Assembly (NCBI GenBank): GCA_035946615.1
Contig: DASYZB010000108.1
Coordinates: 1-54,920 of the forward strand
Direction: 5' to 3'
DNA: 54,920 bases
Source of the DNA: Verrucomicrobiia bacterium
GTDB lineage: Bacteria; Verrucomicrobiota; Verrucomicrobiia; Limisphaerales; UBA8199
The notes beneath the pieces were generated by a model. That model had not been told where the DNA came from. It saw only the letters and a list, made by a program, of their open reading frames with translations, and did no database searches. Each line of letters opens with the position of its first letter. The stretch's first letter is position 1. Of this stretch, positions 4,836-41,256 are shown in pieces. The position numbers were made by a program, and so were the translations under genes.

Positions 4836-6446
4836 TCAGCGGCTCTCGGGTTGGCTCTCGGATGGCTTTTCCGGGGCCGGTTTGTCCGGCTCGCCACGGT
4901 AGCTGGCCACCACCCACTCGCTGAGTACCTTGTCCGGGTTGCCCACGGCGTCGGTGTCCAGGACGAACTCTTGTTTGCCGGAGTTTTGGGCCAGGAGCTT
5001 GAGGCCGAAGTGAAAATCTTTGAAGCGCCGGGCGCACAGGTCGCGAACGGATTGGCCTTTATCGAGCGCCTCCTGGACCAACAGGTCAGCCGCTGCGCTG
5101 GTGAAAGTGATCTTCATCCCATGATTCTCCTGGAACCGGCGCGCAAACTCCTCGACCAGTTGTTTGGCGACAATCCGTTCCTCCTGGCGCGGGTCGGACA
5201 GAATCTTGGCCAATTCGGCGGCTGGATTATCGACCAGTTCACGAGTAACAACGAAGCGCTTTACCTTCGAGGAAGGCAGCTCGAACTTGATGTCGCGAAA
5301 GGTGCGCTCGCAGACCGTCATCAACCCCCGCGCGCCGGTCTGTTCGCCCTGGGCCCGCTCGGCTATCCGGCGCAGCCCTTCATCGGAGAAGAGCACTTCA
5401 ATGCCGTAGGCGGCGAAATCCTGTTCATATTGGCGGATAATGCTGCCTTCGGAATTCTTCAGGATCAGAAACAGGTCCTCGACATTCAGCGACTGGCAGA
5501 CCACCCGCACAGGCAGCCTCCCAATAAACTCCGGCTCAAAGCCGAACTCGATGAAGTCACGGGTCTGCGATTGAGCCAGCACCTCGGCGGCGTTGTCCGG
5601 CGGGCGCTCTTTGGCCGCGAAGCCGATTGTCGCCTGGCGCAGGCGGTGGTGGACGATCTTCTCAAGACCCCCGAATGCGCCGCTGACGATAAAAAGGATA
5701 TGTTTGGTGTTGATGGTCGCAGGGGGCTTCTTCCCGCGTTGGGTGAAGTCCATCATGGCCTGGATTTGTCCGGCGATGTCATTGGGCGACCGGGCGGGCA
5801 CCTCGGTTTCTTCCATCAACTTGAGCAGGTTGGTCTGAACACCCCGGCCACTGACGTCTCGGCCACCCGCGTTGCTTGCGGCGGCGATTTTGTCGATCTC
5901 GTCAATGTAAATAATCCCATACTGGGCGCGGGCCGCATCCCCCTCCGCCAGGCGCACCAGGTCCCGGACCATATCTTCGACATCCCCTCCGACGTAGCCC
6001 GTTTCGGAGAACTTGGTCGCGTCCGCTTTCACGAAGGGCACTCCGATCAGGTCGGCTGCATTGCGGATGAGGAATGTTTTGCCCACACCGGTAGGGCCGA
6101 TGAGAATGATGTTTTGCTTGGCATAATTGGGCGACTCTTTGCCTTCCAGCGCCAAGCGGACATGGTGGTAATGGTCGCAGAGCGCGACGCTCAACACCTT
6201 TTTTGCCTCATCCTGTTTGATGACAAAACGGTCCAGATAGGTTTTGATCTCCCTTGGCTTGTAGTTGAATTCGAATTGGTCCGCCTTGTGCTCCTTGTCG
6301 CCGGTCCCGGTGTCATTTGGGCCGTCGGTTGCAGCTTCCGGGGTTGGCATCGCCCTCGCCGCCTGGAGATGCTGGCGGACAAATTCCGATAGCTGCCGCT
6401 GAAACTCTTCCGGGGAAGGCGGCCCGCTCAATGGTGGCTTATTCAT
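4836..6446 (-). CDS. ClpX-like AAA+ unfoldase lacking the zinc-binding domain
   Basis: I chose the ATG at 6446 (536 residues). The frame is open further upstream, but that extension looks non-coding. Walker A is GPTGVGKT (residues 117-124), the pore loop is TGYVGG (about 149-154), Walker B is IIYIDEID (about 178-185), an IGF tripeptide lies at 274-276, EFIGRLPV near 307, and a sensor-2 type GARG near 371. The IGF tripeptide is the loop by which ClpX docks on ClpP, so partnership with ClpP is likely. Unlike canonical ClpX (about 420 residues), it has no N-terminal Cys4 zinc domain. It also has about 110 extra C-terminal residues that look like a second small AAA-type C-domain. It is probably a second, specialised unfoldase rather than the housekeeping ClpX. 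Confidence 0.85.
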
Positions 6447-6553
6447 AAAAAGTAACTTTTGGCCCTGAGGAACCAGCCCTCCGAGGGCGTTGCACTCTGC
6501 TCGCGCGGCCAATCGCCTTGCCACCTTACCCCATTTGTGCCATAAGACCAACC

Positions 6554-7201
6554 ATGCCCGAGGAAATTCCAACACCAAATCGCGAACGGTTTGAGGCGGC
6601 TTTGCACCGGTTCGATGAGGAAAACAGCCGCGACCCCAACATCGAGCGGGCGGGAGGGGCAGGGCATCCCCGGGAGTTGCTCTATGCGCGGCGGCTAAGC
6701 CAGTGGGTGCTGCGGTTGTGCCCCCAGGCCTCCGAGGCGCTCCGGTTAGCGGCTCGCTGCCAGCACTTGTGCCGCTGGACCATTCCGCGTGAGACCTATC
6801 CGATGACGCGCCGGGGCTATCTCCAATGGCGCGAGGCACTCAAAAAATTCCATGCTCTCGAGGCCGGCAAAATCCTCAAGGAACTCGGCTACCCTGAGGA
6901 GCTTATCGAGCGCGTTCAATCTCTGAATTTGAAGCGGGGCTTCCCACGCGATGCCGAGGGAAGGGTGCTCGAAGACGCCCTTTGCCTGGTCTTCATGGAG
7001 TATCAATTCGGGGAATTGGCCCAAAAGACCAGCCGGGACAAGATGATCAATGCGCTTCAGAAGGCCTGGAAAAAAATGACCCCCGCCGGCCAGGCCCAGG
7101 CGCTGGCGCTCTCTTATACTCCGCAGGAAAAGGACTTGCTCGATGAGGCTCTCTCAAAAGGCCCGTCAACAAAAGAAAGCGGCGACCCGCCTGAAGGCTG
7201 A
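6554..7201 (+). CDS. DUF4202 family protein
   Basis: The product is 215 residues from the ATG at 6554 (MPEEIPTP). It matches the DUF4202 pattern: [10 protein letters not shown] near the N-terminus, then [15 protein letters not shown], the conserved [18 protein letters not shown], and near the C-terminus a helix with [18 protein letters not shown]. The protein is all-helical and cytoplasmic, with conserved His and Arg residues reminiscent of an HD-like fold. The function is not established. The gene is divergent from the ClpX-like gene, with about 107 bp between start codons, so the two may share a promoter region. Confidence 0.8.
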
Positions 7202-7267
7202 ATCGCCGCTCAATGTTGTAATCAGCCTGCGCCCACCTCAGTTCAGGCGAAGGCTTCAGCAGCATTC

Positions 7268-8865: not shown

Positions 8866-8992
8866 ATCTTTTCCTCCGTTCAACCGCTATTTGTTTCCAT
8901 TGAGGTCCCGGTTTGCAAACCGCCGACCTCACCGGCAGTATAGATGAGCCACTCCAGATTACCATAGGGTCAAACCCCTTAAAACTCTTCCT

Positions 8993-38809: not shown

Positions 38810-39327
38810 TTCCTGAAAGGCATCAAACCGAAGTGCAGCACGAGCCAGATCGGCACAGCGAACAGGGTGATTGCGCCCAATCGCTCCCAGGTCCATGAAA
38901 GGTAATGCGCCTGGATGGGGTAGATGGCAATCATGAAATAATTGCTGAACCGGGTTTTACCCAGAAATGAGCAATATTTTGGGTATCGGTGACGCAGTCC
39001 GCTGATCAGGGCGACCAGCCCAAATGCCAGAACCAGGATGGTGACGAACAGGTTGATCTCGATGTGAGGGGTTGCCATTGAACCCAGCACCACGCGTTTT
39101 TCCACGCGCGGGTTGAGCGTTTGCAGGTGATAAAAATAAACCCATTGCGCGCCCGCCCACAGGAAGCTGAAGCCGGTTTGAATGGCGGTGCGGAAATTGG
39201 CTTTGGCGGAGGTCAACTCGCTTGCGAGCAGGCCGAAATAAAGCGGCACAATCCCCCAAATCAGGGTGATATGCTGGAACGGCGTGACGATCAGTTCCGC
39301 AAAAGTACTCCAGTAATCGTGACTCAT
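38806..39327 (-). CDS. hypothetical inner-membrane protein, coupled to the TIM-barrel gene
   Basis: The product is 173 residues with four hydrophobic segments: residues 14-35 (PFQHITLIWGIVPLYFGLLA), 47-66, 90-108 (EINLFVTILVLAFGLVALIS) and about 143-168. No family is recognised. It lies 18 bp after thrS and overlaps the following gene by ATGA, so it belongs to the same transcript as both. Confidence 0.6.
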   Translation of the reverse strand: MSHDYWSTFAELIVTPFQHITLIWGIVPLYFGLLASELTSAKANFRTAIQTGFSFLWAGAQWVYFYHLQTLNPRVEKRVVLGSMATPHIEINLFVTILVLAFGLVALISGLRHRYPKYCSFLGKTRFSNYFMIAIYPIQAHYLSWTWERLGAITLFAVPIWLVLHFGLMPFRK

Positions 39328-39345
39328 GGCGCCGGAGAACCAGCA

Positions 39346-41256
39346 TCACGGGACGCGGTTGCGGATGTCATTGAGCAATTGGGCGATGACCTCCTGCCGG
39401 GGTTTGGCGCCCAGACTGCCCTTGCCATGCACCCGGACGCTCACGGCGTTGGCGGCCATGTCCCGCGGCCCGACCACCAGCATCGTATGGACCTTCGCCT
39501 GCTCGGCTTGCCGGATTTTGCCGTTGATCTTGTCGTTCGAGTAGTCACCTTCCGCGCGCACCATTTGGGCGCGCAGTTCCTGCACCATGCTTTTGGCGTA
39601 GTTCACCAGCGGCTCCTCCTCACCAATCGTCAGTACGCGGACCTGCTCGGGCGCAAGCCAGAGCGGGAAATTGCCGGCATAATGCTCGATGAGAAAGCCG
39701 ATGAACCGCTCGTGCGTGCCCAGCGGCGCGCGGTGGATGCAGAGCGGAGTCTTCTCGGTATTGTCCTTGTCCCGATAGACAAGGCCGAACCGTTTTGGCA
39801 CGGCGAAATCCACCTGGTTGGTCGTGAGGGTAAACTCGCGGCCACTAACGCTCTGGACCTGCAAATCAATCTTTGGGCCGTAAAAAGCGGCTTCGTTCGC
39901 CACCTCGATGTAGTTGATGCCCGAATTCTTGAGCGTGTCGCGCACCATATCTTCGGTTTGTTTCCAGAGGTCCGGTTCATTGACGAATTTGGCGTTGTCC
40001 CCCGTCAAGCGGGAAGGGTCGTGCGTGCTGAAGCGCATAACGTAGTTGTCGATGCCGAAGATTTTGAAATACTTGAGATACATCTCGTTGACCGCGTTGA
40101 ATTCCTGGGCGAATTGCTCCGTGGTGCAGTAGATATGCGCGTCGTTCATGCTGAGCGAGCGGACGCGCATCAGGCCGAAGAGTTCGCCAGACTGCTCATA
40201 GCGGTAGCAGGTGCCGTATTCGGCCAGACGCAAGGGCAGGTCCCGGTAACTGCGCGGTTCGGCCGCAAAGACGCGGTGGTGATGCGGGCAGTTCATGGCC
40301 TTGAGGTAATACTTGGTTGGAGCGTTGGAGCGTTGGAGCGTTGGAGCTTCCGGGGAACCGTCCTGCCGCACGCCCTCAGCGCCTTCGAGTATTTCCATCG
40401 GTGGGAACATTGAATCCTTGTACAGGTGCGGCAGATGGCCGGAGGTGAGATACATCTTTTCCTTGGCGATATGCGGCGTCTTCACGCGCACATAGCCGGC
40501 CTGGAACTCAGTTTCCTTGGCCAGTTTCTCCAATTCCTCCGCAATGGCCGCCCCCTTGGGCAGCCAGAGGGGCAACCCAGGGCCCGTAAACTCCGGATCA
40601 ATCGTGAACAGGCCCATCTCCTGGCCAATCTTGCGGTGGTCTCGGCGCTTGGCCTCTTCGAGCATCTTAAAGTGGGCATCGAGCTCCGTTTTGTTCTTGA
40701 AGGCGGTGCCATAAATGCGCTGGAGTTGGGGGTTCCTCTCATCGCCTTTATAGTAAGCGCTGGCGACGCTGGTCAGCTTGAATGCGCCGATATTCCCGGT
40801 GCGCATCACGTGCGGCCCGGCGCATAAGTCGATGAAGTCGCCGCTCTTAAAATAGGAAATCGGTTCGCCCTCGGGAATATCCGCCAGGTTTCCCAGTTTG
40901 AATTTGCTCGGGGCGGGCCGGTCGCTCAGCGCGCCGAGCCGTCCCTTTTCTGCGTCCTTCATCGCCTGGTCGCGGGCGACAATAATCTTCTCGAAGGGAT
41001 GATTGGCTTTGATCTCCTTGCTCATCTCGGCTTCGATGGCGGGGAAATCCTCCGGGGCAATCCGGTGGGGCAATTCCACATCGTAATAGAAGCCGGTTTC
41101 GACGGCGGGGCCGGAGGCGAATTGGGCCTCGGGCCAGAGCCGCAGAATGGCGGTGGCCATCACATGGGCGCAGGAATGCCGCAGCCGCTCCAAATCGGTC
41201 ATCCGGTTGCGCTCGTCCAGCGATTTCCTTTCAGGCGGTTGTTTATTGGGTTCCAT
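39346..41256 (-). CDS. thrS: threonyl-tRNA synthetase without TGS domain, with a repeat-derived insertion
   Basis: The product is 636 residues. It starts directly with the editing region (HSCAHVMA near residue 28, CAGPHV near 155), so the usual N-terminal TGS domain is missing. The class II catalytic core shows the zinc ligands in AMNCPHHH, DAHIYC and CIHRAPLGTHERF. Motif 2 is YRDLPLRLAEYGTCYRYEQSG and motif 3 is APLGTHERFIGFLIEH. The anticodon-binding domain ends the protein (VRVLTIGEEEPL, VVGPRDMAANAVSVRVHG). Just before the first zinc ligand, about 20 extra residues (LEGAEGVRQDGSPEAPTLQR and beyond) replace a short loop. They are partly encoded by three 8-bp tandem repeats. It charges tRNA-Thr. 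Confidence 0.95.
   Translation of the reverse strand: MEPNKQPPERKSLDERNRMTDLERLRHSCAHVMATAILRLWPEAQFASGPAVETGFYYDVELPHRIAPEDFPAIEAEMSKEIKANHPFEKIIVARDQAMKDAEKGRLGALSDRPAPSKFKLGNLADIPEGEPISYFKSGDFIDLCAGPHVMRTGNIGAFKLTSVASAYYKGDERNPQLQRIYGTAFKNKTELDAHFKMLEEAKRRDHRKIGQEMGLFTIDPEFTGPGLPLWLPKGAAIAEELEKLAKETEFQAGYVRVKTPHIAKEKMYLTSGHLPHLYKDSMFPPMEILEGAEGVRQDGSPEAPTLQRSNAPTKYYLKAMNCPHHHRVFAAEPRSYRDLPLRLAEYGTCYRYEQSGELFGLMRVRSLSMNDAHIYCTTEQFAQEFNAVNEMYLKYFKIFGIDNYVMRFSTHDPSRLTGDNAKFVNEPDLWKQTEDMVRDTLKNSGINYIEVANEAAFYGPKIDLQVQSVSGREFTLTTNQVDFAVPKRFGLVYRDKDNTEKTPLCIHRAPLGTHERFIGFLIEHYAGNFPLWLAPEQVRVLTIGEEEPLVNYAKSMVQELRAQMVRAEGDYSNDKINGKIRQAEQAKVHTMLVVGPRDMAANAVSVRVHGKGSLGAKPRQEVIAQLLNDIRNRVP
40321..40347 (-). 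repeat. 8-bp tandem repeat inside thrS
   Basis: AGCGTTGG occurs three times in a row (40321-40344), preceded by TTGG and followed by AGC. Because 3 x 8 = 24, the frame is kept, and the repeat is read in all three phases as APTLQRSNAPT. Confidence 0.9.

Follow-up and report, generated by a model that had tools for sequence, protein, structure and literature searches.

Across one order of Verrucomicrobiota, a loop encoded by thrS, the essential gene of threonyl-tRNA synthetase (ThrRS), appears to be a hotspot where DNA is inserted and exchanged. The window, i.e. the whole stretch of 54,920 nucleotides analysed here (contig C108 of genome G000, which belongs to this order like the relatives studied), carries what seems to be an ordinary-looking ThrRS gene, in which an octamer array represents a private, frame-preserving expansion in the tolerant loop. 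We assign a probability of about 70% to these two statements taken jointly. Judging from the gene sequences, the loop can hold as few as 8 or as many as 238 residues, its content is for the most part unrelated even where the genes are nearly identical, and an HUH transposase is read in frame within the loop in four genomes. Furthermore, the gene is split exactly at the loop in a number of relatives; the two halves carry a pair of extensions that is conserved among these genes and lie up to 6.7 kb apart. Split and fused states exist in genes with 97-98% identical flanks. The preliminary description of the window had pointed to the correct position but on mistaken grounds, since the site is anomalous and the repeat is not.

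The features of the window gene are the following:

39346 to 41256, reverse strand: thrS, encoding a ThrRS of 636 residues without TGS domain, fused (unsplit), based on open reading frame, Pfam and structure alignment
40711 to 40842, reverse strand: tRNA_SAD (editing) domain, residues 139-182, based on Pfam
40315 to 40383, reverse strand: hypervariable loop insert, residues 292-314 (23 residues), with bounds from the alignment to relatives
40316 to 40347, open on both strands: octamer array, period 8, four perfect copies, based on TRF, open reading frames and simulation
40288 to 40290, reverse strand: Cys323 codon (MNCP), which presumably encodes the first zinc ligand, based on a residue check across homologues
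39679 to 40320, reverse strand: class II core domain, residues 313-526 (extent of the Pfam match)
39373 to 39645, reverse strand: anticodon-binding domain, residues 538-628, based on Pfam

The window protein thus combines the class II core including zinc ligands, the SAD editing domain and the anticodon-binding domain expected of a ThrRS; Cys323 is presumably a zinc ligand by analogy with the E. coli enzyme. The structures 1QF6 (E. coli) and 1NYQ (S. aureus) can be aligned with the window protein over their editing, class II and anticodon domains, starting at E. coli residue 67, which corresponds to residue 21 of the window protein. Unlike these enzymes, the window ThrRS lacks the TGS domain and has an enlarged hypervariable loop ahead of the zinc cysteine: the gap between the aligned blocks comprises about 4 residues in the two structures and 25-27 in the window protein, where the insert ends 8 residues ahead of Cys323. 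The described insert of about 20 residues in place of a short loop is therefore real with regard to E. coli and S. aureus (23 residues versus about 4), but the loop is enlarged in the relatives, too. A TGS domain at the N-terminus is usual in bacterial ThrRS, though not universal. Its absence, which had been regarded as an oddity, was confirmed for the window ThrRS by Pfam, but it is by its distribution common to the relatives and hence not special to this gene, as 125 of the 135 N-halves in the set have fewer than 90 open residues before RHSxxH (the other 10 were unchecked for TGS). The nearest relative in the tree, G008 (L025), additionally encodes a second full-length ThrRS that is only 41% identical to that of the window.

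The array consists of AGCGTTGG three times in tandem at 40321-40344, as had been described ahead of the zinc ligand, and TRF even extends the array to 40316-40347, where it counts 4.0 perfect copies with a period of 8 and gives a score of 64, the highest of 16 rows in the window. The perfect run of 32 bp is beyond chance, since the longest run of periods 7-9 in 60 first-order Markov simulations was 20 bp. Because 8 and 3 share no factor, it takes three extra copies, i.e. 24 bp, to keep the frame; the repeat is indeed translated within the essential enzyme, giving the peptide APTLQRSNAPT on the coding strand, and the opposite strand is also open across the array (open reading frame 39121-40413, forward strand).

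The proposal that a dispersed repeat had been absorbed into thrS did not hold. The 21-mer of the array occurs only once in the genome of 5.6 Mb, namely in thrS, so that a count of octamer arrays in the genome returned the thrS array alone; its 16-mer with up to two mismatches gave 10 genome matches, two of them being this array, versus 6 for the reversed control, and the DNA of the window insert is single-copy. The array thus looks like a local expansion. Among 123 fused thrS loops the repeat peptide was detected in the window's loop only, and G001, G002 and G066 carry inserts of 21-23 residues in the corresponding position that lack the octamer, the very situation that would, according to the preliminary description, refute its reading. 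A misassembly by collapse of the array is unlikely, because 32 bp are shorter than a usual read. Elsewhere, arrays of the same octamer were found in 63 stretches of the genome contig collection, in 4 of the 293 genomes of the order and in two stretches of the viral collection, both within and outside long open frames. They recur in unrelated bacteria (L042-L110), many in Chloroflexota-titled and cyanobacterial records. A split thrS locus (L215 of G272, near 400) and a transposase-bearing one (L250 of G039, near 205) contain or adjoin further perfect runs of period 8.

The loop was surveyed in 153 loci from 147 genomes of the order, mostly fragmented assemblies; 7 short rows and 3 loci with an N-half only were left out before the tree was built, and G149 was masked. 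The loop was short (8-41 residues) in 48 genomes, of middle size (45-114 residues) in 69, occupied by a transposase (211-238 residues) in 4 and split in 22, while the remainder comprised three frameshifted or contig-truncated loops of the middle type and the masked one; as the genomes were taken from search results and split candidates were deliberately sought, these proportions are not a population estimate. More than one loop class was present in 16 of the 20 families represented by at least two genomes. For inserts of at least 42 residues, a homologous insert was shared by 1 of 9 pairs with 95-100% identical flanks (protein level) and by 4 of 26 pairs with 90-95% identical flanks. The 76 inserts of this size fell into 55 BLAST groups, and 47 of them had no relative in the set. 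In a sample of 154 genomes of the phylum, most of the matches listed outside the order are too closely spaced to accommodate a large insert; the gap of family f66 measures roughly 150-170 nt in the majority of members read, and that of G305, which belongs to another family of the same class, 258 nt.

The turnover is most evident in genus g36, where G114, G206, G134 and G087 share 98% identical flanks and carry four unrelated inserts of 71-83 residues. The flank DNA in this genus is 84-100% identical per 30 codons and 79-88% identical in the last 30 codons before the insert. In 11 comparisons of thrS genes with different inserts, 8 of which fall within g36, 29 mismatches accumulated in the last 5-codon bin before the insert, compared with 2-21 in the other bins of the N side and 1-9 after the insert. 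This rise, which is confined to the N side, may point to recombination via the flanks. Neither a donor nor another copy of the four g36 inserts was detected in the 11 genomes of the genus (10 others per insert), so that silent cassettes were rejected for them, and rearranged or inverted insert DNA was dismissed as a source since the DNA of different inserts, among 18 tested, matches over at most 15 bp. Inteins, which possess Cys/Ser and His-Asn junctions, were rejected for the loop: its junctions are MEL..YYLK, and Pfam found no splicing domain in the 8 inserts scanned.

In 22 examined genomes from 11 families thrS is cut at the loop, presumably between motif 1 and motif 2; this list was assigned by hand from the comparison of tails and heads, with G264 and G181 judged by the N-half alone, and G073 was found later as an additional case. 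The N-half terminates in one conserved, helical-looking tail of the type HRADRQKIEARIAELEKQLADYAKK followed by the stop codon. The C-half starts with its own Met and a conserved head of the type M..EEF..IEQAVKA..AP..V.AAFNELSALRAELKKLGEPE directly ahead of YYLKAMNCP. This head was present in 21 of the 293 genomes of the order (15 of 118 genera; 14 of 154 good genomes), a count that is less biased than the survey but depends on a recognisable start of the C-half, and in 1 of 387 genomes of the phylum, which itself belongs to the same order. Together the two genes of these relatives encode all domains. Nine residues of the editing site, the zinc site and the motifs were checked, and each is conserved wherever the sequence covering it was available, several C-halves ending at contig ends. 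Searches at E<=1e-60 and E<=1e-40 revealed halves or fragments and no second full-length thrS in the split genomes; G221 is exceptional in having a truncated fused copy besides the split gene. Split and fused genes face each other at 97.2% flank identity in G162/G105 and at 97.8% in G180/G114. A single frame of 1066 residues in G040 was rejected because of 11 stops between the N-half stop and the C-half. AlphaFold, run on an alignment of two rows, was uninformative (mean pLDDT 40).

In 17 linked loci, the stop of the N-half and the start of the C-half are about 0.6-6.7 kb apart, the first head met in G196 being a truncated copy. The cargo in between comprises:

G053 and G094: AccI-like restriction-modification
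G196: type II methyltransferase and endonuclease
G250: type II methyltransferase
G056: OLD/GajA-like ATPase with DUF3800 and DUF2130
G102: DarTG (DarG, E=8.5e-130)
G172: weak AbiGi match and Y1 transposase
G073: nucleotidyltransferase with NTase_sub_bind partner
G058: PIN
G233: HTH and sub-threshold DUF5615
G191: HATPase and metallo-beta-lactamase fold, including genes on the opposite strand
G040: PRiA4_ORF3
G162: ATP-grasp

The proteins scanned in G032 matched no known family, and those of G272 gave a marginal match only. Strong PADLOC matches (E<=1e-10) were obtained for 6 of the 17 linked split loci and for 11 of the 30 proteins scanned, some of which had been chosen after Pfam hints, three of which lie beside unlinked halves and none of which stem from G092 or G180. 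In a control with 29 window genes 34 families were matched, each of the best 25 matching one member, mostly PD-T4-6 (kinase-like). The cargo thus often seems to be defence or toxin-antitoxin/Abi-like, but appears to have other functions or no known family elsewhere. No self-splicing intron RNA was detected in an Rfam gathering scan that covered the locus of the window gene and the 17 split loci; introns were rejected as cause of the split, given the absence of a group I or II core and the opposite-strand genes in the G191 gap. No tRNAs were found at the split loci. The only Rfam matches were two Acido-Lenti-1 in the G092 gap (L174:7659-7703 and 8867-8911), on opposite strands.

A literature search, in which subscription literature was thinly covered, returned no publication that describes either a ThrRS split in two or hypervariability of its loop. 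The naturally split AlaRS of Nanoarchaeum equitans, as portrayed in PMC10036535, is similar in that one essential synthetase is encoded by two genes; it differs from the split ThrRS, which is found in bacteria, is cut in a hypervariable loop, encloses kilobases of variable cargo and alternates with a fused state. PheT of Mycoplasma pneumoniae tolerates splits in the laboratory and indicates that synthetase halves can work together (PMC12494982), as those of ThrRS may; its splits are engineered or transposon-made, neither natural nor recurrent as in ThrRS. At the split loci, as in the core defence hotspots of PMC10250203, many genomes have defence genes in a fixed position, the kind of cargo differing between them. 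Apparently unlike those hotspots, the thrS site lies inside a core gene.

REP-associated tyrosine transposases (RAYTs) possess a Y1 HUH domain and flanking REP hairpins. The inserts of 211-238 residues in G021, G039, G158 and G110, members of four families, contain the motifs DHVHLL and FHYICRNP (FHYIC) and have hairpin-forming ends; they are 70-81% identical to each other, their flanks 80-91%. Pfam, run on the G021 insert only, identified Y1_Tnp (E=5.8e-6). On the basis of this general model and the motifs, we regard them as possibly RAYT/REP-like: HUH motif, small size and hairpins on both sides agree, in contrast to which the location within the reading frame of an essential enzyme is unlike RAYTs.

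These transposases raise the question of whether all inserts are, or once were, small transposable units that target the loop, comparable to the Rickettsia palindromic elements, which are foreign DNA translated in frame within host genes. Related inserts in distant flanks (e.g. G099/G211, insert 73%) would agree with such an origin. However, the five inserts tested have no further copy, that of the window in its own genome and the four of g36 in 11 genomes of the genus, and the inserts are mostly unrelated to each other, unlike the palindromic elements; taking the 47 of 76 inserts without relative into account as well, we consider this origin unlikely. Hardly more convincing, and still rather improbable, is a structurally free loop into and out of which repeats, transposases and junk drift neutrally, in the absence of any exchange system or selection. 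The short inserts, in which Gly, Pro, Ala and Glu abound and 8.9% of the residues are hydrophobic, the partly octameric insert of the window and the lack of any Pfam domain in a scan of 7 inserts other than the transposases fit this explanation. The mid-size inserts do not, since they are rich in helix formers (55.7%) and poor in Gly/Pro (9.3%), and homologous inserts show dN < dS in 7 of 9 pairs, those where dS was computable (G267/G271: dN 0.048, dS 0.446; G099/G211: dN 0.19, dS 1.15). A single tail/head pair conserved in split genes of 11 families is also at odds with drift.

It seems very improbable that assembly errors or pseudogenes account for the split genes and the odd inserts. The fragmented state of the assemblies, the broken frame within the C-half of an otherwise conserved thrS in G004 (L014) and G006 (L015), and thrS remnants in G196 and G233 could be taken as hints of artefact or decay. 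Against this, the same extensions recur in 21 genomes of 15 genera, some split loci reside on long contigs (433 kb in G162, 185 kb in G053), the checked residues are kept, and the searches of the split genomes revealed no full-length substitute, the additional copy in G221 being truncated.

For the favoured exchange and insertion hotspot, we infer the mechanism of exchange, the assembly of the halves in trans and the selective driver. Incoming thrS alleles would recombine with the resident gene using the conserved flanks as homology arms, and any insert or cargo that allows the two halves to fold together would be exchangeable. Split halves may assemble in trans via their helical extensions and mid-size inserts may form helical domains, while short inserts, including that of the window, would be filler. 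As a more speculative extension, which we place somewhat below even odds, the essential enzyme might serve as an exchange platform, with the thrS halves as homology arms, the loop as an exchangeable module of very fast turnover and the helix pair opening and closing the gene for defence cargo. If so, loss of the locus would be lethal and cargo residing there hard to lose, and the site would represent a new class of hotspot within, not beside, a core gene. Synthetases are usually viewed as slow and conserved; here a site of ThrRS seems to be swapped between near-identical genes. The tolerance of an essential enzyme to fission, core genes as landing sites of cargo, and phages or toxins as drivers of change in translation enzymes thereby become testable. 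Annotation pipelines may call a split thrS partial or broken.

The cargo of G196 includes a further C-half start (L214, near 3963), which is truncated and a remnant of an earlier split arrangement. Fragments of the 3' part of thrS, spanning about residues 426-634 or less, were detected downstream of the gene in G092 (L174), G156 (L229), G192 (L230) and G091 (L243), G192 having two, which are separated by kilobases of other genes. Both observations are signs of repeated recombination at thrS. Finally, a contig of the viral collection (IMGVR_UViG_3300025838_000023, L251, 106,782 bases) encodes at 5986-7227 a ThrRS of 413 residues without editing domain, which has a short loop and is 63% identical to that of the window; it is possibly a phage-borne spare of the same kind.
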